From an uncultured Draconibacterium sp. (GTDB taxonomy: Bacteria; Bacteroidota; Bacteroidia; Bacteroidales; Prolixibacteraceae), in the NCBI RefSeq assembly GCF_913060805.1, contig NZ_CAJXTC010000011.1, positions 1 through 64,000 of the forward strand: a DNA stretch of 64,000 bases, read 5' to 3'. Positions 53,446 to 64,000 of this stretch are shown here, piece by piece; within the stretch, counting starts at the first letter, position 1; every line of letters begins with the position of its first letter. The notes beneath the pieces were generated by a model, which had not been told where the DNA came from, ran no database searches, and was given only the letters and a program-made list of their open reading frames with translations. Both the position numbers and the translations under genes were made by a program.

Positions 53446-54741
53446 TTATTCGTTTTCAAGTACCCATTGGGCATCCAGTACGAGCATTGAATCGACAGAT
53501 ATGTTTTGTTCGTTTGCTTTTTCGGTTACATTCTTCAACCAGTTTTCATCACTTTTTATTCGCCTGATTACTTCCTGAATCTTTTGGTTGTAGGCTTCAG
53601 GACCTTCGATATGTCCCTGTAGAATATCGAGTGCATCATCAACAAATCCCCAGGCCATATTTACCATGTTCGATTCGGATGCCATTAGCAGAACAACATC
53701 GCTGTTATTAAGTACAGATTGACGATTGATGGAATTGACTTTCACACTCGATTGCTTGCTCTCCGGATAAACTTCATTGTTGTAGTACCAGAACGATGTT
53801 TTATTAAAACACTTTTCGCCTAAGCCCAGATAATACCAGTTCCAGTAAAAACTATCTCCAATTACTAACATATTCGTCTTGTCACTTTCGGTATAATCCC
53901 ACTCAGTGGTCGGATACGACAATGTTTGCGATGGAAGGCCTTTCAACAGGTTCATGCCCCATTCAATATCATTATCAGTTCCCTGACTATAATTTTGTTT
54001 GCGGACGTCGGTGATGATCATGTCCGGTAAATTCCGGCCAGATAATTTTTCTACCTGTTTTATTAAACTGTCGGCAGCAATGGCTGCACCGTACTCACTC
54101 CAGTGAATGCCGTACTGAGGATACAAAATATGCTGCGTTGTATCTTTCATCTGTAAAAACCAGTCGTTGGCGTCAAAACAGTTCACTCCATAAGTGGGCA
54201 GTAATTTGCTGTATTCTTTGTAAAAAGTGCTGTCGGTTGCTTCTTCATTGCTTTCCTCCGGGAAATATTCCGGACAATAAGATGCCTTTCCTGGAGGAAG
54301 AACAACAATCAGTGTTTTGCCAACATTTTCCAGTTCTGTTTGTAATTTTTTTAACGCTTCTACTTTTTTTACAAGATCGGCTCGTCCATTAAAATACTGG
54401 CCGTGATAAGCATCAATATAAGCTTGTTCGAACAAATAATTGTCCTTTCCAACTACCACTCCTTTTGCCGATGCTTGTTTAAAAAGTGAAAACTGAATCT
54501 GATTATGCAAACGCACTAAAAACGGGCGAAATCCGATGTTGTCGTTTATAAATTTCTCCATGTTTGATTGATACTCACCAGAGAACCAGCCGGAAGTTGA
54601 ATACTCCGGTTTCTGTGCAATAATTACACCTCCATGAAGCGGTTCTTCGTGAAATACGTCAACTTTAGCCTGTATTAGTGGTAGAATAAGCACGAATACG
54701 AAACCTGTAAACAATAATATTTTTGTTTTCTGATTCTTCAT
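53446..54741 (-). CDS. AlgJ/AlgX-like SGNH polysaccharide acetylation protein
   Basis: 431 residues with a signal anchor (KILLFTGFVFVLILPLIQA). The domain resembles AlgJ/AlgX, periplasmic partners of MBOAT proteins in O-acetylating exopolysaccharide: DNIGFRPFLVRLHNQIQFSL, GKDNYLFEQAYIDAYHG, PPGKASYCPEYFP, GIHWSEYGAAIAADSL with the catalytic His, and VIGDSFYWNWYYLG with the nucleophile Ser. The usual Asp two before that His is Gly. It begins 2 bases after the algI stop, so both act together. Confidence 0.85.
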   Translation of the reverse strand: MKNQKTKILLFTGFVFVLILPLIQAKVDVFHEEPLHGGVIIAQKPEYSTSGWFSGEYQSNMEKFINDNIGFRPFLVRLHNQIQFSLFKQASAKGVVVGKDNYLFEQAYIDAYHGQYFNGRADLVKKVEALKKLQTELENVGKTLIVVLPPGKASYCPEYFPEESNEEATDSTFYKEYSKLLPTYGVNCFDANDWFLQMKDTTQHILYPQYGIHWSEYGAAIAADSLIKQVEKLSGRNLPDMIITDVRKQNYSQGTDNDIEWGMNLLKGLPSQTLSYPTTEWDYTESDKTNMLVIGDSFYWNWYYLGLGEKCFNKTSFWYYNNEVYPESKQSSVKVNSINRQSVLNNSDVVLLMASESNMVNMAWGFVDDALDILQGHIEGPEAYNQKIQEVIRRIKSDENWLKNVTEKANEQNISVDSMLVLDAQWVLENE

Positions 54742-54743
54742 GA

Positions 54744-56165
54744 TTAAAACCTAAAGTAAATAAACGGGTTAAAGTCGGATGACGTAACTGCACTCAAATT
54801 AATTACCAGCAAAACCAGCAAAATTATACTGACCACGATGTGGGTAGAACGTTTGTATTTGGTGTAAAATACAAATGTTTGAAGCTGTTTTCCTGCCTTT
54901 AAAAGTGTGATTACAGAGAACAACGCGGCAAGAATCATGATGTATTTCGATTCAGTAGTCAGGTGATAATCTGCTAATGATATATCGGTCGAGAACATCT
55001 TTCCAAGGTAAAAGCGAATGTCGGGCAGGTTTTCGATTCGGAAGATTACCCAGCCAACAAGTACAACAATATAGGTAAAAAGTACGCGTGGGATTGTTCC
55101 GATTCGTTTGAAAAGTTTTATTAGAAAAATGCGATCGAGAATAAGAAAACAGCCATGCCAGGCCCCCCAAATAACAAAGTTCCAGGAAGCTCCGTGCCAC
55201 AAACCGGAAATCAGAAACACAGTAATTAAATTGCCGTATAAACGCCTTTGGCTTTTTACCCGGTTGCCGCCAAGTGGAATATACAGGTAATCGCGCATCC
55301 ACTCGCTTAAGGTAATGTGCCAGCGGCGCCAAAACTCGGTAATGTTTTGCGATATGTAAGGATTATTGAAATTCTCGGGGAATTTGAAGCCAAAAATACG
55401 CCCTAAACCAATGGCCATATCGGAGTAGCCGCTAAAATCGAAATAGATTTGAAAAGAATAGGCCACGGCAGCTAACCAGGCCAGGGGAGTGGTAACTTCG
55501 GAATGGGGAAGTGAATAAATGGCATCAACCTGCTCGCCCAGCACATTTGCAATGAGCATCTTTTTCGATAAGCCGATCACAAACCGGTACATTCCGTACA
55601 GCTTCTCATCCAGCGTTTCATTCTTTCTTCTGTCAATAATATCGTCGGCAACCGTATTAAAGCGAACGATCGGTCCGGCAATTAACTGGGGAAACATCAA
55701 AATATACAGGAAGTAATCAGTTATTCTTTTAAGCGGAGCATGCACTTTTCTGTACACATCAATGGTGTATGTCATTGATTGAAACGTAAAAAACGAGATT
55801 CCGATGGGTAACGCTACCGCCGTCCACTGCACCGACTGAAACCCGGCCGATTGAAGCAAGGCATTAAAGTTTTCGATAAAAAAATTGGCATACTTAAAAT
55901 AGGCGAGCAGTCCAATGTTTATGAATACAGATGTCCAAAGGTACAGTTGCCGGTGTTTGGCATCGCGGTGAATTTGGCGAACAACATAAAAGTTAATGGT
56001 TAGCGAAGCCAGTAACAAAAACACAAATTTAGGAGCACCCCAGGCATAAAATACGAGGCTTGAAACAAGCAGCACGTAATTTCTGAATTTGTGCCCAACT
56101 ACGTGATATATAATTAATACCAGTGGTAGAAATATGCAAAGAAAAAGGATACTACTAAATAACAT
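54744..56165 (-). CDS. MBOAT-family O-acyltransferase (AlgI-like)
   Basis: 473 residues, 11-12 helices. Moves acyl groups across the inner membrane for polysaccharide O-acetylation. Typical AlgI landmarks: YAWGAPKFVFLLLASLTINF, LPIGISFFTFQSMTYTIDVY, FPQLIAGPIVRFNTVADDI, WRRWHITLSEWMRDYLYIPL, and GLWHGASWNFVIWGAWHG with the catalytic His. It sits 14 bases after the GH16-like lipoprotein and 2 bases before the AlgJ-like gene. Confidence 0.93.
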   Translation of the reverse strand: MLFSSILFLCIFLPLVLIIYHVVGHKFRNYVLLVSSLVFYAWGAPKFVFLLLASLTINFYVVRQIHRDAKHRQLYLWTSVFINIGLLAYFKYANFFIENFNALLQSAGFQSVQWTAVALPIGISFFTFQSMTYTIDVYRKVHAPLKRITDYFLYILMFPQLIAGPIVRFNTVADDIIDRRKNETLDEKLYGMYRFVIGLSKKMLIANVLGEQVDAIYSLPHSEVTTPLAWLAAVAYSFQIYFDFSGYSDMAIGLGRIFGFKFPENFNNPYISQNITEFWRRWHITLSEWMRDYLYIPLGGNRVKSQRRLYGNLITVFLISGLWHGASWNFVIWGAWHGCFLILDRIFLIKLFKRIGTIPRVLFTYIVVLVGWVIFRIENLPDIRFYLGKMFSTDISLADYHLTTESKYIMILAALFSVITLLKAGKQLQTFVFYTKYKRSTHIVVSIILLVLLVINLSAVTSSDFNPFIYFRF

Positions 56166-56179
56166 ATTTGTGAATTAAC

Positions 56180-58180
56180 TTATTCAACAACAATTTCATA
56201 CACTTTCCCTTTTATATCGTTCTTTGGGAATGGAACGCCGTTTTGCGAGAAGGGTTGAAATGGCCACCACTCGGCATAATGAAATTCCTGCGTAATTATG
56301 CACAACATTTGGTTGTTGGGTATCGATGTGTATTCATCGTTCATATAACCACAAAGTTCCATGTTGTCGGGTGTTGGTCCGGCTCTCCATATAATCTCAG
56401 TTGGTTTCCATTCAATTTCGTAATAGAAATACTCCGGATCGTATAATTTGTCGTTTTTAATCGGGTACTTTGATGTTACCGCTTTGTAATGATCGGTCCA
56501 GCGATGCAGCTCAAATGTTTTGTCTTTGTACGAAATGTCGTCAACTCCCTTAAAAAATTTCTGTGGATCCTGATTGGCCAGATCCCAGTTGGTACAGCAG
56601 AACATCACATTGTCCGATTCGCGGTCATCGTCTTTCAAAAACTCCTCATTATCCCAAGTTGGCGAGGTTTTTACAATCTCAATATCAATTTCGGAATAGA
56701 AGTAATTCTTTTGCTTTTTTGCCAGCGACTCTTCTCCGTCTTCTCCTTTCGGAATGTAACCATCGCGTTCGGCAGGCCGGCGGTTATTCCATTCGGCTTC
56801 GTCCTGGTAAATTAACCAGAAGGCATTTGTGAGTCCGTTCCAAACGTTGTCGTTATTTAATTGTCGCGGGAATTTTATTTTACCCCGGAACTTGCCATAC
56901 GTAAAACCAATGCGTGTTTTTGCTCCAACATTTTGCTTGCGTAATTCCTGCCCCTCAACATTGCCCGGATTTATCAATGTTAGCAAACTATCTTGAATAA
57001 AAGCAGTTTCGCACGGTGTTTGACTGTTAAACGAATGTCCCACAATTAATTCTGTAGAATCGTATTTTTCCATGGCGCTGAAAAAATCATCCTGGGTATA
57101 AGGCTCGTTAATCACGTCGCGAACCAGGGGAACATTTCTCATGGTGTATCCCCTGTCGATGGCATGCGAGTATTGCTCGAAATGAGCGTGCTCGTATAAA
57201 TGTTCAGTACTGTTACACGCGTCCGACAAGTATTGCGTATCGATATTCTCGTCGCGTTGTTGTGCCGGGTTGATGTATAATCCTTTGGCCGGATCGATGG
57301 TTGCCGACACTTTTAAAACACGGTCCGAAGTCGTAACCGACACTCCCTCCATTGTACTTCCTTCGCCATTTCTGAAATAGTAAAACGGATTAATAAAAGC
57401 ACTGTTTTCATCGGTTTGCCCAATGTTTTTAATGTAATCAGGAATATTCGCTAAAGCAGCTTCATCAGCCACAATAAGCATAAACTCATAATTCCCGACC
57501 CGCGGATTTCTTTTCCAGCGGTGGTTAAAATCACCTTTTCGCGATTCATCTTTTATCATCCACAAAGCATCGAGAAAAAGCTGCTGCTCAATATCCCGGT
57601 TTTCCTTTGCAGCTTTTTCCTGAATTGATTTGAACCAATCAGGTGTAGTTCGCATGGCATTTTTTAAACCCTCAATTCGTTCTTTGCTAAAAACCTGCTT
57701 GCTCATATCGCCGCCATAATACAAATGTTCGTCTCTGGGGTTACCTACTATCCGAAATTTATCCGTTATGCTTTTGCCGTTGACCGCCTTAAAACCTGTA
57801 GATACATCTTCCCAGCTCCCGTAAAAGTTCTCGTGGCAATAGGGGTGGAGGTTGCCATTTTTTATTTCAGGGAATTTATAGCTGCTATTCTGGTAGTATA
57901 TTTTGTAATAATATTGTTTCGAGCCATCAGTTTTATCGACTTTAAAACTAAATGAAAAGTTGCCATCACTGGTTTGGTTCGAAGACGGAATGATAATACC
58001 ATCAACTATCGCGTTATCCAAGTCCATTGGTAATGCAACCGTATCACTTTCGCTCAAATTGCTTAACGGGTCGAAATTTTTGATTACACTATTTGTTGTA
58101 TTGGTGCACGAATATAAAGTAGAACTAAATATAGCCAGTAACAAAAAAAATCTAAATAGTTTATTCATTTGGCTTGTCAT
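56180..58180 (-). CDS. Lipoprotein with GH16-like domain
   Basis: 666 residues from ATG 58180; a longer start at 58255 would overlap the upstream gene by 26 bases. Lipobox in FRFFLLLAIFSSTLYSCTNT. The N-terminal 300 residues are of unknown fold. The C-terminal half resembles a GH16 jelly roll: FRGKIKFPRQL..., NGLTNAFWLIYQDEAEWN, then YSEIDIEIVKTSP with the EIDIE catalytic pattern at 497-501, and YYEIEWKPTEIIWRAGPTPD. It may trim or cross-link the polysaccharide made by this operon. No close named family recognised. Confidence 0.7.
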   Translation of the reverse strand: MTSQMNKLFRFFLLLAIFSSTLYSCTNTTNSVIKNFDPLSNLSESDTVALPMDLDNAIVDGIIIPSSNQTSDGNFSFSFKVDKTDGSKQYYYKIYYQNSSYKFPEIKNGNLHPYCHENFYGSWEDVSTGFKAVNGKSITDKFRIVGNPRDEHLYYGGDMSKQVFSKERIEGLKNAMRTTPDWFKSIQEKAAKENRDIEQQLFLDALWMIKDESRKGDFNHRWKRNPRVGNYEFMLIVADEAALANIPDYIKNIGQTDENSAFINPFYYFRNGEGSTMEGVSVTTSDRVLKVSATIDPAKGLYINPAQQRDENIDTQYLSDACNSTEHLYEHAHFEQYSHAIDRGYTMRNVPLVRDVINEPYTQDDFFSAMEKYDSTELIVGHSFNSQTPCETAFIQDSLLTLINPGNVEGQELRKQNVGAKTRIGFTYGKFRGKIKFPRQLNNDNVWNGLTNAFWLIYQDEAEWNNRRPAERDGYIPKGEDGEESLAKKQKNYFYSEIDIEIVKTSPTWDNEEFLKDDDRESDNVMFCCTNWDLANQDPQKFFKGVDDISYKDKTFELHRWTDHYKAVTSKYPIKNDKLYDPEYFYYEIEWKPTEIIWRAGPTPDNMELCGYMNDEYTSIPNNQMLCIITQEFHYAEWWPFQPFSQNGVPFPKNDIKGKVYEIVVE

Positions 58181-58229
58181 ATGGTTTTGCTGTATTGTTT
58201 CGGTTAAGATATGAATTCCAGGTAATTTA

Positions 58230-61200
58230 TTATTCATCAGTTTTTTCTTCTTCATTGGCCTCCATCAATTCCCAATTGTTGTAATCGTAAATATTTCCTT
58301 TCACCCTGAACGATTGACGGATGTTGTATTTCGACCGGGTTTTAAGATTCTGGTGCCACCAGGTCAGGAAGGTATATATTTCGCGTCCAGCCTGCTCTTC
58401 TCCCTGCGTTGGATCGTTATCGTTAAACAATATCGAAGGAATGTCGGCGTTGCTCATGGTACGCCAATCTTCTTCCAAAGGTCCTTTAGCATTAAAATCT
58501 TTTACAAGCATTAAACAGTTCAGGCGTAGAAACAAGTCTTTTCTGAATTTGTCGTAGTTGTAATTTTCCAACGGTACATCCACTACCGCTTTTCCATCGT
58601 AATGATACCATTCCGGACCATGATCGGATGCAATAACGATCTTTGTATTATCATAAACATTGTTATCCTGTAACCATTTCATCCATTTCGAGAAGTCCTC
58701 GAAAAATTTTTCCTGATTTTGGTAAGGGTGCACATTTTTGGTGATTTGACCATCCTTAACAATGTTCCAGGGGGCATGAGTATACTCAGTATGGAAAAAA
58801 ATAAAATTTTTGTCGGTACTCGTATTCACCGAGATGTTGGGTAATATCTGTACAAAATAATGAGGAATTGTTTCGTTGTTCTTCTGATACGATTCATCGA
58901 AATGCACCAGCCAGTTTCGTTCGTTATAAATCAGAGGTTTTAAACATAACGGAACGCCATAAAACAGGGAGTTTTCCCAAAATCGGGTATACCAAATCTC
59001 AACACTGCTGCCGAGTTTCAGCACCTTGTCCCACGAAGGATCCCACCAGGGAATAAAATTATCAAACTGATCCCAATCAACGCTTGCATATCCCATGTTT
59101 CCGCTCGAAAAGTAGTAATCATTTTCCTTTATTCTGTCGTAGAATGTTTCAGTAGCAAGCCGGTACTTGTTAAGTATCGATTCATCACTCATCGCATTCA
59201 TATTCGCAATATTAAAATCATTGCCGTTCATCATTGCCGGCATCGAGGCATAAGTAAAGTTCGAGGTTGATACCGTGTTCGGATACCACTTGAAGCCTTT
59301 AAAAATTTCTTTATACTCCGGATGATCCTCGAGTATATCTTTCATATACCACCCTTGTAATCCATCGGGAATAAAGAACAAAATATTCTCTTTGGTTTGC
59401 GAGAAGGGAATCACTTTATCAACTGCCGGCCCTTTTTTCTGCTCTTTTTTATCGGCAAAAAGTTGTCCTTTCGTTCCCGATTTGTAGGTGCTTTGACCAA
59501 TTGTAATAAGGATAAAAAGTACAAAAGCGATTGTGACATATTTATGATGGTCTTGTTTTATCAGGTATGTAACAAATGACATCGCACCAACAATAAAAGC
59601 AAATTCCAACACGTAAAACCACAGATTAAAAGCGAGTTTGCTTTCTTCTGAGAACATGCTGTCTTGCAAAGTACCGACGTTTACCGGAACAAGAAATGTA
59701 TTTACATAAAACAATATAGATAAGCCCAGCATCAACTTTGTAAGCCCTTTTCGAAGTTGGTTGGGAGCAACTACAAACAGAATAAGTAGAATAAGAAAAG
59801 CAGATGCAGCAATGCTAAAATTGTTTACAATGATGTCGGTAGCAACAAAGTTGAAGTTGTACGGAAACGATGCATAAACCATTAAGGGTTTCCACCAAAA
59901 TACCAGTGTAACGATATAGAATGATACCAGCGTGTAGGCAATAATCCATCTTCGGCTGAATCCGTTTTTATTCACTGCCTTGTTCTGAACTGCGAAATAA
60001 AATGGCAATACAGCTGATCCAATTCCGGCGAGAATAATGGACGCCAAGCTACATTGTTCTTTTATACTTTCCGGTAGCGATAACCAACCGAAAAGTACAA
60101 AGTCGTTATGCATTGTTACCAAAAATATTTCGGTCTGTGCCAAAAGAAATAGGCTTGAAATAACCAGCGAACTACTCCATTTTAGCGATCCGCGCAATCC
60201 GTTACTAAAGAATTTTATTGCTAACAGGATTTGAAGTGGAATGAGAGTAATAACGGATATTACGAGCAACGCATTATTTTCTCCGTGATAATAATATTTA
60301 CCCGAAAGATAGAAGTAAATAACAGCTGCAAATGCGATATAAAAAAACGCGTTATGAATAGTCAGCTGTTGAATTCTAAGTATAGCTTTTTTTACCGGCG
60401 TTTTAATAAGAATAAACGACCAAACAAGTACAATTGCTACTCCGGCAAGTTGTAATGTCAACCCAATAAAATGATCGAACCGATTTGTTATCGACCAGTA
60501 AATTGCTGCCAGCAGCGCAACAACAACCGAAACTTGTGTGGCGTAGAAATATTGCTTTTTATTCTTAAGAAAATCTTCTTTTACGGCGGTTCGAAACGAC
60601 TTGAAAAGCAATCCAATAAAACTGGTTAAAAGCAGCGATCCGAATAGTGATGCAAGGATGCGCATTGGCAGCGGCTCCAGACTTCGGCTCAATGCCCAGT
60701 TAATTTGTGCAATAACCGTTATAAAAGCAAAAACAAAAAAGACTGCCGGAAGGAAAGTCGATAATGAAACTGAGGTCATCGATTTTTCAGAGCGTTTAAA
60801 TACCTCTTTATTGGTTATAAACAGACGTAAAAATGCAAATACGTTGTTCATGGTCCAGTACAGTACCAGCCCCGATGGGAGATTGAACAGCAGCACCAGA
60901 AAAGCTCCGGCAATGACAACCATTTGTTTACGCTCCAATGTGTTTCCATTACGGGTGTAAAAATATACTGTTAACAGATTTACAACTGTCATTAGTATCG
61001 GCAACACATTCACAATCCCAAATAAATGATCGGGTTTTGAGAGGTCGGTTAACGGGCCAAACGATACACCTTGAATAGCTTCCAGGTTGTCGAGGTATTG
61101 ATACGCAGCAATAAAAAACGGGATTTGTACCAGCAGACTTAAAATCGGGATGAGTGCTTTAAACTGGCTGTAACCAAACTGTCGGTTTAATGTTTTTAGG

Positions 61201-61442
61201 TAATAATAGCGCTCCTGCCCGGTATACACCTGCTTAATTTCATCAATTAAAGGTTGCATGCGCTTTTTAATGGCGTCGTCGTGTTTTTTCGCTTTCTCTA
61301 TATAAATGAATATGGGAAGCAGTAACAACGAAATGGCAAAACTTAAAAACAGTATTGCAATTCCATAGCTGCCGGTTAGGTTATAGCCAGCCTCAAAAAT
61401 GGTACGTACTAAAAATATAAATGGTGAAAATATTTTATCCAT
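58230..61442 (-). CDS. YidC-like domain fused to alkaline-phosphatase-superfamily transferase
   Basis: 1070 residues. Residues 1-215 match YidC/Oxa1 (YGIAILFLSFAISLLLLPIF, FKALIPILSLLVQIPFFIAA, LFNLPSGLVLYWTMNNVFAF). The groove Arg of true insertases is Ser38. A polytopic segment of about 12 helices (230-660) follows. Residues about 685-1040 form a sulfatase/LtaS-like catalytic domain: ENILFFIPDGLQG with metal Asp near 693, the nucleophile region SNFTYASMPAMMNG near 730, FHTEYTHAPW, and ASDHGPEWYH near 939. It could transfer phosphoglycerol or phosphoethanolamine to a surface glycan. Its start is 6 bases from the paralogue's stop. Confidence 0.85.
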   Translation of the reverse strand: MDKIFSPFIFLVRTIFEAGYNLTGSYGIAILFLSFAISLLLLPIFIYIEKAKKHDDAIKKRMQPLIDEIKQVYTGQERYYYLKTLNRQFGYSQFKALIPILSLLVQIPFFIAAYQYLDNLEAIQGVSFGPLTDLSKPDHLFGIVNVLPILMTVVNLLTVYFYTRNGNTLERKQMVVIAGAFLVLLFNLPSGLVLYWTMNNVFAFLRLFITNKEVFKRSEKSMTSVSLSTFLPAVFFVFAFITVIAQINWALSRSLEPLPMRILASLFGSLLLTSFIGLLFKSFRTAVKEDFLKNKKQYFYATQVSVVVALLAAIYWSITNRFDHFIGLTLQLAGVAIVLVWSFILIKTPVKKAILRIQQLTIHNAFFYIAFAAVIYFYLSGKYYYHGENNALLVISVITLIPLQILLAIKFFSNGLRGSLKWSSSLVISSLFLLAQTEIFLVTMHNDFVLFGWLSLPESIKEQCSLASIILAGIGSAVLPFYFAVQNKAVNKNGFSRRWIIAYTLVSFYIVTLVFWWKPLMVYASFPYNFNFVATDIIVNNFSIAASAFLILLILFVVAPNQLRKGLTKLMLGLSILFYVNTFLVPVNVGTLQDSMFSEESKLAFNLWFYVLEFAFIVGAMSFVTYLIKQDHHKYVTIAFVLFILITIGQSTYKSGTKGQLFADKKEQKKGPAVDKVIPFSQTKENILFFIPDGLQGWYMKDILEDHPEYKEIFKGFKWYPNTVSTSNFTYASMPAMMNGNDFNIANMNAMSDESILNKYRLATETFYDRIKENDYYFSSGNMGYASVDWDQFDNFIPWWDPSWDKVLKLGSSVEIWYTRFWENSLFYGVPLCLKPLIYNERNWLVHFDESYQKNNETIPHYFVQILPNISVNTSTDKNFIFFHTEYTHAPWNIVKDGQITKNVHPYQNQEKFFEDFSKWMKWLQDNNVYDNTKIVIASDHGPEWYHYDGKAVVDVPLENYNYDKFRKDLFLRLNCLMLVKDFNAKGPLEEDWRTMSNADIPSILFNDNDPTQGEEQAGREIYTFLTWWHQNLKTRSKYNIRQSFRVKGNIYDYNNWELMEANEEEKTDE

Positions 61443-61448
61443 GTGTGG

Positions 61449-64000
61449 CTATTTTGTTCTGGTCCAATTATTTATGTCGTATATGTTCTCCTTGATCTTG
61501 TAACCTCGAAGTATAGGATAGTTCGTATTCTCGAACATTTTTATTTTCCATGAAACCTTTAGTGCATCAAAAGTTCTGTTATTCAGCGAATCGATCATCA
61601 ATGGCGTATTTCCGTTAAATGAAATATTCTGAACATCGAGTGTGCTCATCAGCGTCGAATCTATTGAAATTTCTCCGTTTGAAGAAAAATCTTTCACCAA
61701 TAATAACGAAGAAAAGTTAAGCATGTCGGCAAAAGGAACTTTATCGTAGTTTATGTTTTGATAGGGTTGGTCAATCATTACCGTTGCAGTGTCTTTCACA
61801 TGTCGCAACCCGTGGTCGCTGGCAATTACAATACGTGTATTATCGTAAACATCTAATGATTTCAGAACATTTATCCACTGCGAAACAATATCCAGTCCCC
61901 ATTTATTATTGGTGTAAGGATCTACATTTGGCACAAACGAACCATCCTCGTCGATAATATCCCACGGAAAATGTGTGGCTTTATACGACATAAACGTGTA
62001 GGTCTTTTGGCTGGCTTTATTTTCGGTAATATAGGGCAGTGCGCGCAATGAATTATAATGGCGGGTAATGTCGTTGTGCTCATTAACGCCTGGTTGATGC
62101 ATATGCCAGGAACCATTGTCGTAAATTACGGTTTTAAACAGTAAAGGAGAGCTGAAAAACAAAGCGTTATATCGCAGTATTTCAACACCAATATTTCGTG
62201 TCTGACCTATGTTTAGTACCTTTTTTAACGGGTTCCAATTATCGCTCCATATCGGGATGTAACGATCGTAAGTCCTTTTGTCGATTTTGCAGTAAGGCAA
62301 ATCGCTGCAAGTGTAAAAATATCCGCTTCCTTGTGCTTTGTCGCGTAAAGTTTCCGCAGCCTTAGTCATTTTTTCACCCAGTGTGTGGTCCTTATCCTTA
62401 TCCAAAAGTAAGGGCTCAAATTCATATCCTCCAATCAGTCCGGGCATCGATCCTCCGGTGTAATTTGTTGATGCAACCGTGTTGGGATAATAGGTAAAAC
62501 CAGCGAAATTTTCTTTGTTTGCCCGGTTTTCATCCAGATAACGCTGAAAGAACCATCCTTCAATCATATCCAGCATGATAACAACAACATTTTCCTGATC
62601 TTTCGAAAGAGTAATGTTATGATCTGAAACATCAATACTTTTTGCCTGGCTTACGATTCTGTCTCCTTCATTAACACGACTTAAATCTGCCGCGTTTAGC
62701 GCGAATATTGCCTGCCCAATGACGATTACGTTCAAAAGCACCAGAAAAATATTTACGCTTTTGAGCTTATTTCTCCGATAGAAGAAACGGACTAAAAAAT
62801 AAAGTCCAACAATGGCAAATGCCTCGGTTATATATTCTAAGTACGGTGTATCTAATTCGCTGCTTCTGGAGTAATTCAGTCCTTGAAGCGTTCCGACATT
62901 TAAAGGGATAATAGCACTGTGGATAACGCTTATTAACACCAATAATACAGAAATAACAGAGAACCATACACGAAGGCGTTTGGGCGAAATCCAATAGATA
63001 AACAGTAAGGCCAAAATAATCTGGACCATTAAAACCAATCCGCTGTTAATTATTGAATCTGTTCCAAATCGGAAAGCTTCAGGGTAAGATGAAAAGGTAA
63101 CCAGCGGATTCCAGACAAGGATAAATCCGGATAAGAAAACAATACTGAGCACAAAGGAAATAAATCCCGGCTTGTGGTTAATTTTTGATTTCCAATTCAG
63201 CGTAAACGGCACGATTATAAATACGAATAATAAGCCAAACAGAGCAACATCCTGCATTTTTGAACCGCTTTTGTTTTTCGCGATGTTCAGGAATTCAAGG
63301 ATGTGGGTATTTTCTAACGAAAGAAAATGATAAACCTGAACGATTAGGCAGATCAATAATACCAGGTGGAAAAAGTGTTTAAACTTTATGCTTGAAAGTA
63401 GCTTCGTTTTAACCAGGCAAGCGATCTGAAGGATAATCGAAAGAACCAGGGACATTATTGCAAGGTCTTCATTTACACCTTCGTAATTGTACAGTGATGC
63501 CAGGTATAAATAAACCGACACAAACAATAGCGATATTATAACTGCGGGAGAAGTTTTTTCTATTCCTTTTTTTATAACCGAATTATACAAATTCAGTACA
63601 CCAATAAGTAGTGAAATTACCAGTGCCGCAATTATACGTTCTGCTATTTTAACGAGAATAGTTATCTCTTTTCCAATTATTGTTACATCGAATAGTTGTA
63701 TTACCACGAACGACAGCACCGCTATTGAAAGGTAGCTTTGCCAGTGTTTAGATAACTCCTTTTCCAGTTTTTTGCGAAATACAGAATACCATCCGTCCTG
63801 AATACCATTTTCATTCGTTTCAACCGGCTCAGGTATATTTGGATTAAACACTTCCCTGTTGGTTATGAATAGGCGTAAAAATGCAAACACATTGTTCATG
63901 GTCCAGTACAGTACCAAGCCGGAAGGAAGATTGAACAGCAGTACTAAAAATATACCGGCTACCACAATCATTTGTTTCCGCTCCGATTTGTTGCCATTGC
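61449..64000 (-). CDS. Second YidC-alkaline-phosphatase fusion, 5' end beyond the window
   Basis: At least 850 residues; the reading frame is open to base 64000 and the N-terminal YidC helices lie outside. The visible YidC end (ERKQMIVVAGIFLVLLFNLP, SGLVLYWTMNNVFAFLRLFI) is nearly identical to the neighbour, at DNA level too. The catalytic domain has diverged: NVVVIMLDMIEGWFFQRYL, STNYTGGSMPGLIGG, FMSYKATHFPW and VIASDHGLRHVKD keep the metal and nucleophile pattern. The pair arose by tandem duplication and may act on different substrates. Confidence 0.85.
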   Translation of the reverse strand, partial: NGNKSERKQMIVVAGIFLVLLFNLPSGLVLYWTMNNVFAFLRLFITNREVFNPNIPEPVETNENGIQDGWYSVFRKKLEKELSKHWQSYLSIAVLSFVVIQLFDVTIIGKEITILVKIAERIIAALVISLLIGVLNLYNSVIKKGIEKTSPAVIISLLFVSVYLYLASLYNYEGVNEDLAIMSLVLSIILQIACLVKTKLLSSIKFKHFFHLVLLICLIVQVYHFLSLENTHILEFLNIAKNKSGSKMQDVALFGLLFVFIIVPFTLNWKSKINHKPGFISFVLSIVFLSGFILVWNPLVTFSSYPEAFRFGTDSIINSGLVLMVQIILALLFIYWISPKRLRVWFSVISVLLVLISVIHSAIIPLNVGTLQGLNYSRSSELDTPYLEYITEAFAIVGLYFLVRFFYRRNKLKSVNIFLVLLNVIVIGQAIFALNAADLSRVNEGDRIVSQAKSIDVSDHNITLSKDQENVVVIMLDMIEGWFFQRYLDENRANKENFAGFTYYPNTVASTNYTGGSMPGLIGGYEFEPLLLDKDKDHTLGEKMTKAAETLRDKAQGSGYFYTCSDLPYCKIDKRTYDRYIPIWSDNWNPLKKVLNIGQTRNIGVEILRYNALFFSSPLLFKTVIYDNGSWHMHQPGVNEHNDITRHYNSLRALPYITENKASQKTYTFMSYKATHFPWDIIDEDGSFVPNVDPYTNNKWGLDIVSQWINVLKSLDVYDNTRIVIASDHGLRHVKDTATVMIDQPYQNINYDKVPFADMLNFSSLLLVKDFSSNGEISIDSTLMSTLDVQNISFNGNTPLMIDSLNNRTFDALKVSWKIKMFENTNYPILRGYKIKENIYDINNWTRTK

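Follow-up and report, generated by a model that had tools for sequence, protein, structure and literature searches.

The window analysed here, a 64,000-nucleotide stretch from an uncultured Draconibacterium sp. (assembly GCF_913060805.1, contig NZ_CAJXTC010000011.1, positions 1-64,000 of the forward strand), ends inside an operon of nine genes on one strand. At its center are two tandem proteins, FUS1 and FUS2, in which a YidC-type membrane domain is fused to a sulfatase-type domain of the alkaline phosphatase superfamily. With a probability of about 50%, we propose that the operon encodes a membrane-crossing relay decorating the cell surface with phosphonate, in which a TagF-like transferase, the YidC-type domain and the C-terminal domain of the fusions would act in turn. 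A wider reading is held more tentatively: the TagF-like gene and the fusion may form a general two-gene machine for surface phospho- and phosphono-head groups, in which the TagF-like enzyme would make a lipid-linked donor and an Oxa1-superfamily fold, having given up insertion, would serve as a dedicated lipid translocator inside the transferase.

FUS1 is encoded on the minus strand at 58230..61442 (1070 aa). It begins with the YidC domain (residues 1-215) with five transmembrane (TM) helices, continues with 13 predicted TM helices at about 227-657 and ends with the alkaline-phosphatase/sulfatase-superfamily domain at about 677-1066. FUS2 (minus strand, 1013 aa) occupies 61449..64000 and extends beyond the window edge to 64490, likewise with its YidC domain first and its sulfatase-type domain last. 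The initial annotation had read the two genes as tandem YidC-fused phosphatase-superfamily proteins, and sequence and fold comparisons confirmed this: the N-terminal 215 residues hold a genuine YidC core fold and not an unrelated one, and the catalytic residues are intact in both copies. D693, T730, D940 and H941 are invariant in 94/94 aligned fusions, and T730 aligns with the catalytic Ser position of the sulfatase 7snj; T730 is presumably the nucleophile, and the Asp and His residues presumably bind the metals. The C-terminal domain has an alkaline-phosphatase-superfamily fold, with structure and profile matches that include EptA, MCR-1, LtaS and phosphonate monoester hydrolases, PbgA being the top Foldseek match. 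In FUS1 it is predicted to be periplasmic, as Lys/Arg account for 37 of 152 inside-loop residues vs 15 of 179 outside-loop residues. The S1 sulfatase signature is lacking. In S1 sulfatases the Cys or Ser of the C/S-x-P-x-R motif is converted to formylglycine; this position is Thr in 94/94 fusions, and the score against PF00884 (19.3) is under the cut-off of 25.

A genome-contig scan for related loci returned 174 encoding stretches, of which the best 80 gave 74 loci (L numbers). The related loci contain 107 fused open reading frames (ORFs), and all 99 that lie away from a locus edge are at least 820 aa long; with the records of the own genome the counts become 112 in total and 101 away from an edge. 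By label the loci come from Bacteroidales, other Bacteroidetes and many spirochaetes, with a few marked Clostridia, Mageeibacillus, Chloroflexi and Fluviicola. Its recurrence in Bacteroidales, Spirochaetota and a few further lineages shows that the fusion is not an artefact. The 99 full fused ORFs, together with full-length single frames in many genomes, rule out a sequencing artefact, a concern raised with the first description, as well as a chance fusion. Some split or truncated copies do exist, namely the second copy of L022 (a YidC ORF plus a separate sulfatase ORF), several in L030, L017 (runs of N) and several at locus edges, and the genome survey gave fusion pieces in G154, G234, G254, G265, G273, G281, G287 and G327. 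In L030:1-15700 (Treponema putidum), TagF-like genes and fusions form an array of 16 kb. Most of its fusions are split into a YidC and a sulfatase ORF, and a single copy of 952 aa is intact; the split ones may equally reflect decayed genes, phase variation or sequence errors. L027 and L038 carry a YidC fusion with a strongly diverged sulfatase domain (5.1 and 3.8 bits) adjoining a TagF-like gene. A plasmid search gave 13 records whose matches covered 14-17%, and no fusion among them.

The YidC part differs from the insertases in its groove. The positively charged insertase residue there (Arg72 of BhYidC2, helix TM1) aligns with Ser38 of the fusion, and the 94 aligned fusions have T in 53, S in 32, N in 6 and Q in 3 cases, thus a positive charge in 0/94. 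The same position is R in 3wo7 (BhYidC2) and K in the canonical YidC of the window genome, which is kept as a separate gene with groove charge and basic C-terminal tail. A conserved Arg in H1 is named in the available part of PMC8675477, and nothing on the groove charge was found in the available part of the YidC review PMC7618853. The fusion has no free basic C-terminal tail, since its chain runs on into the further TM helices. Meanwhile, fold and cytoplasmic hairpin are kept, and residues 1-215 include 20 invariant columns in the 94 sequences. N155, Y195, N199 and N200 are among the invariant residues facing the groove.

This YidC domain is also the most conserved part of the protein. In 39/39 within-locus pairs the two copies resemble each other more in this domain than in the sulfatase domain, with median identities of 69% (YidC), 39% (sulfatase) and 29% (TM region) and a much smaller spread at fourfold-degenerate sites (0.47, 0.41 and 0.39, respectively). 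Between loci, the medians are 50% for YidC (the top), 33% for the sulfatase domain and 22% for the TM region (the lowest). Against between-locus pairs matched for sulfatase identity, the within-locus YidC identity lies above the matched median in 30/38 cases and above the 95th percentile in 10/38. FUS1 and FUS2 share 82.5% identity in YidC vs 33% in the sulfatase domain, and the former value tops all 617 matched between-locus pairs (maximum 77.8%). As fourfold sites of the two genes are about equally diverged across the parts (identical at 0.33 in YidC, 0.28 in TM and 0.33 in sulfatase), the high YidC identity was first read as purifying selection alone. This was dropped after trees showed grouping by locus in the YidC part only for four cases (the own locus, L012, L075 and one pair of L029), and in the sulfatase part only for 0/26 loci; older gene conversion therefore probably contributes to the YidC likeness of the own pair too. 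In the tandem fusions of L012 and L077, the YidC-coding parts are near-identical even at silent sites and the remainder is not, a pattern that we read as recent gene conversion mostly confined to the YidC part. Outside Bacteroidales, the identity of the TagF-like partner tracks YidC more closely than the sulfatase domain (mirror-tree 0.92 vs 0.77). On these data, the YidC part seems to deal with something that the copies of a cell share, and the sulfatase part with something copy-specific, which would agree with a lipid-linked donor and differing acceptors.

Upstream of FUS2, genes for a TagB/TagF-like transferase, an Fe-alcohol dehydrogenase (Fe-ADH), a phosphonopyruvate decarboxylase (Ppd) and a fused cytidylyltransferase (CyTase)-phosphoenolpyruvate (PEP) mutase follow in turn at gaps of 33, 9, 4 and 56 bp. 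The TagB/TagF-like gene (64524-65747 in window numbering continued beyond the edge, minus strand) matches PF04464 with 33.7 bits vs a cut-off of 22.1. Its RPHPQ motif is invariant in 58 aligned sequences. The partner (L004:4524-5747) and its homologues also start with a conserved hydrophobic stretch that reads YIDPxx(G)S. A TagF-like gene is present in 59 of the 74 loci with a YidC part, and in 46/70 loci it lies at most 300 bp from a fusion.

Whole-genome profile searches (TagF-like clade threshold E<=1e-40) showed the two genes to be paired. In the window genome's order, Bacteroidales, fusion and TagF-like clade each occur in 4/149 genomes, and the four are identical; one of them (G049) has the fusion in two pieces on two contigs. 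For Spirochaetota, to which G154 with its locus L030 belongs, the full profile matches 139/149 genomes, mostly through canonical YidC, and a fusion was defined as a match beyond the YidC part. On this definition 23 genomes have full-length fusions and two (G234, G287) fusion fragments only, and the TagF-like clade occurs in 25/149 genomes, exactly these 25. Among the 395 genomes of the window genome's phylum, a fusion or TagF-like gene was found in the own genome only. PEP mutase scored over its cut-off in 8/149 genomes of Bacteroidales, including all four with fusions (Fisher p 3.5e-6), and in 18/149 of Spirochaetota, 11 of them within the 25 (p 5.1e-6); for the 23 full-length-fusion genomes alone the count is 9/23 (p 2.1e-4). 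Fusions outnumber TagF-like genes in 15 of these 23 genomes, equal them in 8 and are fewer in none. The 25 pair-bearing genomes hold 55 near-full-length fusions and 30 TagF-like genes, and G267 has four fusions dispersed over 1.4 Mb with a single TagF-like gene. Such a surplus is what would be expected if a single donor-maker fed several transferases, each with its own acceptor.

Searched by itself, the sulfatase-domain profile detected the fusions and also four weaker relatives that lack a match to YidC (G294, G314, G249 and G515; 69-97 bits); these four genomes gave no match to the TagF-like profile. Because the paired genomes coincide and the YidC-less ones have no TagF-like match, the YidC part goes with the TagF-like partner within the family. 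In L122 and L123 (G294 and G314), the YidC-less TM-sulfatase relatives adjoin ribosomal protein genes (by eye) with no TagF-like gene beside them; they could possibly represent the state before YidC fusion.

The remaining upstream genes, all on the minus strand and given in continued window numbering, point to phosphonate chemistry. The fused CyTase-PEP mutase (68070-69434) scores 425 bits against TIGR02320 (cut-off 319.55), Ppd (66883-68013) scores 501.9 against TIGR03297 (cut-off 312.5), and the best model of Fe-ADH (65757-66878) is TIGR03405. For the CyTase part, the nearest PDB chain is 5x3d (E 1.4e-59), titled phosphoenolpyruvate phosphomutase, which we take to be the Fom1 domain. According to the available part of PMC6697681, Fom1 is a reported producer of CMP-hydroxyethylphosphonate, and EDKxxxxxNS is the motif of PEP mutases; the fused protein contains EDKTGLKKNS. 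Both marks of a Pnt cluster are thus present, namely a PEP mutase with EDKxxxxxNS, and a phosphonopyruvate decarboxylase together with a cytidylyltransferase. The operon is predicted to make CMP-2-hydroxyethylphosphonate (CMP-HEP), and the predicted end product is a decorated, perhaps O-acetylated surface glycan or lipid. The group handled by the fusions is most likely a phosphonate, with its C-P bond, in place of the phosphoglycerol or phosphoethanolamine suggested in the initial annotation; the genes bearing on this lie just beyond the window edge. The order PepM-CyT/Ppd/ADH/TagF/fusion recurs in other Bacteroidales loci. Ppd occurs in 22, CyT-PEP mutase in 19 and ADH in 16 of the 74 loci; ADH is found in 15 of the 18 Bacteroidetes-type loci L007-L024, and the other three (L009, L013, L016) start inside the fusion array at a contig end.

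We therefore envisage four steps as a working model. In the cytoplasm, the CyTase-PEP mutase, Ppd and Fe-ADH, enzymes recognized by sequence, would make HEP and activate it as CMP-HEP. The TagB/TagF-like transferase, with its conserved hydrophobic N-terminal segment, would move the phosphonate from CMP-HEP to an inner-leaflet lipid carrier. From this enzyme the YidC-type domain would probably receive the head group and, by way of its uncharged polar groove, pass it across the bilayer. Finally, the periplasmic LtaS/EptA-like domain, with its conserved residues and Thr730 as nucleophile, would transfer the phosphonate to an acceptor glycan or lipid. The two fusions of the operon could serve two acceptors from one donor. 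In other bacteria, the two-gene core appears to be fed with other CMP- or CDP-activated head groups, e.g. 2-aminoethylphosphonate and probably ethanolamine phosphate. It had been suggested earlier that YidC was recruited for the lipid-linked substrate of a glycan-decorating transferase. The recruitment gains indirect support from the absent groove charge (94/94), the co-occurring TagF-like partner, the high conservation of YidC and the lipid scrambling in liposomes by purified E. coli YidC, reported in the available part of a preprint (Li et al., PMC10491306); flipping and transfer themselves we still infer.

Alternative head groups are suggested by neighbouring genes. A PntC-AEPT-like fusion is found in 3 of the 74 loci (spirochaete-type), and a cytidylyltransferase fused to a CobD-like domain in 14. 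Such CyT-CobD/serine-phosphate-decarboxylase-like ORFs stand near the TagF-fusion pair at L028:4298-6118, with similar ones in L034, L035, L037, L040, L042, L046 and L049 and further ones in L057, L060, L061, L063, L071 and L074. The L028 ORF, the sole one compared with the PDB, best matched the threonine-phosphate-decarboxylase-like 6oux, and its other half matched the nucleotidyltransferase/aminotransferase 6pd1, which we take to be T. denticola PntC-AEPT. Such a CyT-CobD protein suggests a one-protein route from phosphoserine to CDP-ethanolamine, which might be another donor for the pair. Besides, L052:4197-6206 (a Clostridia metagenome-assembled genome, MAG) encodes, between fusion genes, a three-part fusion protein made up of MobA-like NTP transferase, cytidylyltransferase and PEP mutase domains.

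Several observations weigh against the relay. Known TagF-type enzymes build polymers on lipid-linked acceptors and are not known to make lipid donors. A TagF-like gene was not seen in the locus DNA of 15/74 loci (whole genomes not searched for it), the TagF-like profile was built from fusion neighbours and applied to mutually related genomes, and the YidC-less cases are as few as four. Fe-ADH scores 171.6 against the phosphonate model TIGR03405, under the cut-off of 423.7; its substrate is thus presumed. PEP mutase was found in 18 of the 48 genomes behind loci L025-L073 and L075, many of which are MAGs and possibly incomplete, and 30/48 gave no match, which weakens a phosphonate-specific system. 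As PEP mutase occurs in only 11/25 and 18/48 genomes, the core is not phosphonate-specific. The special standing of the YidC part has limits as well. Unmatched between-locus pairs of Bacteroidales reach a YidC identity of up to 87.7% (median 70%). In trees, at least one pair of copies of a locus forms an exclusive group in the YidC part for 7/26 multi-copy loci (sulfatase part 3/26), leaving 19/26 without YidC-part grouping by locus. The overall mirror-tree is mixed (TagF vs YidC 0.82, vs sulfatase domain 0.85).

The strongest rival, which we consider unlikely, keeps the same parts: in the cytoplasm, the TagF-like enzyme would decorate a lipid-linked glycan or polymerise on it; the fusion, as a flippase-ligase, would move this larger lipid-linked product across the membrane and join it to an acceptor. 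The partner matches PF04464, a family of teichoic-acid primases and polymerases, and one TagF-like gene with many fusions is also compatible with this scheme. HEP bears a hydroxyl as well as a phosphonate group, so that its polymerisation to a teichoic-acid-like poly-HEP would be chemically feasible. However, amino head groups, apparently supplied elsewhere (PntC-AEPT in 3/74 and CyT-CobD in 14/74 loci), should not polymerise via the amine, and a glycan or polymer seems large for a YidC-sized groove. Next in rank, and rather improbable, is a YidC part that serves the 13-TM region as an inert anchor or as a help in folding. In that case the sulfatase domain would use bulk phospholipid, as EptA, MCR-1 and LtaS, all among its structure or profile matches, take their groups from phospholipids, and the TagF-like enzyme would act independently on the same glycan. 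An inert part is not what the conservation suggests, as YidC leads in 39/39 within-locus pairs and holds 20 invariant columns while the 13-TM region is the least conserved. In addition, fusion and TagF-like gene were not found apart in the two sets of 149 genomes (two with fragments only), and the YidC-less relatives stand without TagF in four genomes. A simple anchor role was thus disfavoured.

Two further readings are less probable still. The C-terminal domain might be a hydrolase or remodeller of phosphonate or phosphate esters, or a lipid sensor like PbgA/YejM, and not a transferase. The top Foldseek match to PbgA and the matches to phosphonate monoester hydrolases speak for this quite unlikely reading; the nucleophile Thr and metal ligands, invariant in 94/94, are not expected of a pure sensor, and a hydrolase would leave the activated donor and the TagF-like partner in the same operon unexplained. 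Very improbable, finally, is that the YidC part still works as an insertase, reserved for the membrane proteins that the operon itself encodes. The fold is that of YidC, and since the groove charge is dispensable in some YidCs, an uncharged groove alone is no proof of lost insertase function. Yet the charge is absent in 94/94, a free basic C-terminal tail is missing too, and the genome retains a canonical YidC with both.

Downstream of FUS1, at gaps of -26, 14 and 2 bp, the operon continues on the minus strand with three further genes. The first encodes a 691-aa protein of unassigned family with a lipobox-like N-terminus (by eye) at 56180..58255, overlapping the FUS1 end by 26 bp. At the thresholds applied, Pfam, NCBIfam and PDB gave no match to it, and the GH16-like identity once given to this lipoprotein found no support in these libraries; its one homologue is in L013, beside MBOAT/AlgJ genes and a fusion. 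The AlgI and AlgJ-like genes named earlier were both recovered, as an AlgI/DltB-like MBOAT O-acyltransferase at 54744..56165 (473 aa; PF03062, 106 bits vs a cut-off of 27), whose top NCBIfam match is DltB with a score under the DltB cut-off, and an AlgJ/AlgX-like SGNH protein at 53446..54741 (431 aa; PF16822, 52 bits vs 26.5). The MBOAT/AlgJ pair might O-acetylate the same material. With the window proteins as queries, MBOAT-like genes were found in 5/74, AlgJ-like genes in 3/74 and the lipoprotein in 1/74 loci. Hence, these genes look like accessories to the fusion core.

Domains, operon, invariant active site and pairing are directly read from the sequences, and the CMP-HEP donor, the lipid intermediate, translocation by the YidC-type groove and transfer by Thr730 would be the functional counterpart. 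The TagF-like gene and the fusion, neither of which was seen without the other in the genomes searched for both (two with fusion fragments only), make a concrete candidate for the late steps of phosphonyl tailoring. If true, the wider two-gene reading would supply the missing late half of this tailoring, and the fusion would represent a lipid flippase of YidC type joined to the enzyme that it serves. Since the groove charge is absent while the domain stays the most conserved, the fusion also offers a natural test of lipid movement as a physiological job of the YidC fold. Loci with the fusion are labelled as gut and rumen spirochaetes and as Bacteroidales, so that it may shape the surface chemistry of host-associated communities. 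All parts come from known families; their combination and pairing did not appear among the matches listed in searches of open-licence PMC papers, which showed no account of the fusion and none linking YidC to phosphonate biosynthesis.

Compared with the Pnt pathway (Rice et al. 2019, PMC6697681), the system shares PEP mutase, Ppd and cytidylyl activation, and a PntC-AEPT-like fusion in three spirochaete-type loci. The available part of that paper calls the steps after CMP-phosphonate in surface phosphonate biosynthesis unknown, and the word 'sulfatase' is absent from its main text. The partner resembles the TagB/TagF CDP-glycerol glycerophosphotransferases in exceeding the PF04464 cut-off, but has the conserved YIDP-type hydrophobic segment, and its predicted donors are CMP-phosphonate or other CDP-X. 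The YidC fold is common to the fusion and the YidC/Oxa1/Alb3 insertases, whereas in the fusion the groove Arg/Lys is replaced by S/T/N/Q (94/94), a free basic C-tail is absent, and extra TM helices and an enzyme are joined on. With LtaS and EptA/MCR-1 the fusion shares the catalytic fold, a Thr nucleophile, Asp/His metal ligands and the (predicted) periplasmic placement. The N-terminal domain of LtaS and EptA consists of five TM helices, in contrast to YidC plus 13 predicted TM helices before the catalytic domain here, and the fusion is accompanied by a TagF-like partner and, in this operon, a CMP-phosphonate pathway. The system would be a variant form of surface head-group transfer by alkaline-phosphatase-superfamily enzymes. 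In its logic it recalls GtrA/GtrB/Gtr, a three-part lipid-carrier decoration system with one donor synthase, a flippase and periplasmic transferases: an activated donor, a lipid-linked donor, a flip and an acceptor-specific transferase, with one donor-maker for several transferases. Unlike that system, the fusion would move a phosphonate or phosphate head group, with flipping and transfer in one polypeptide.

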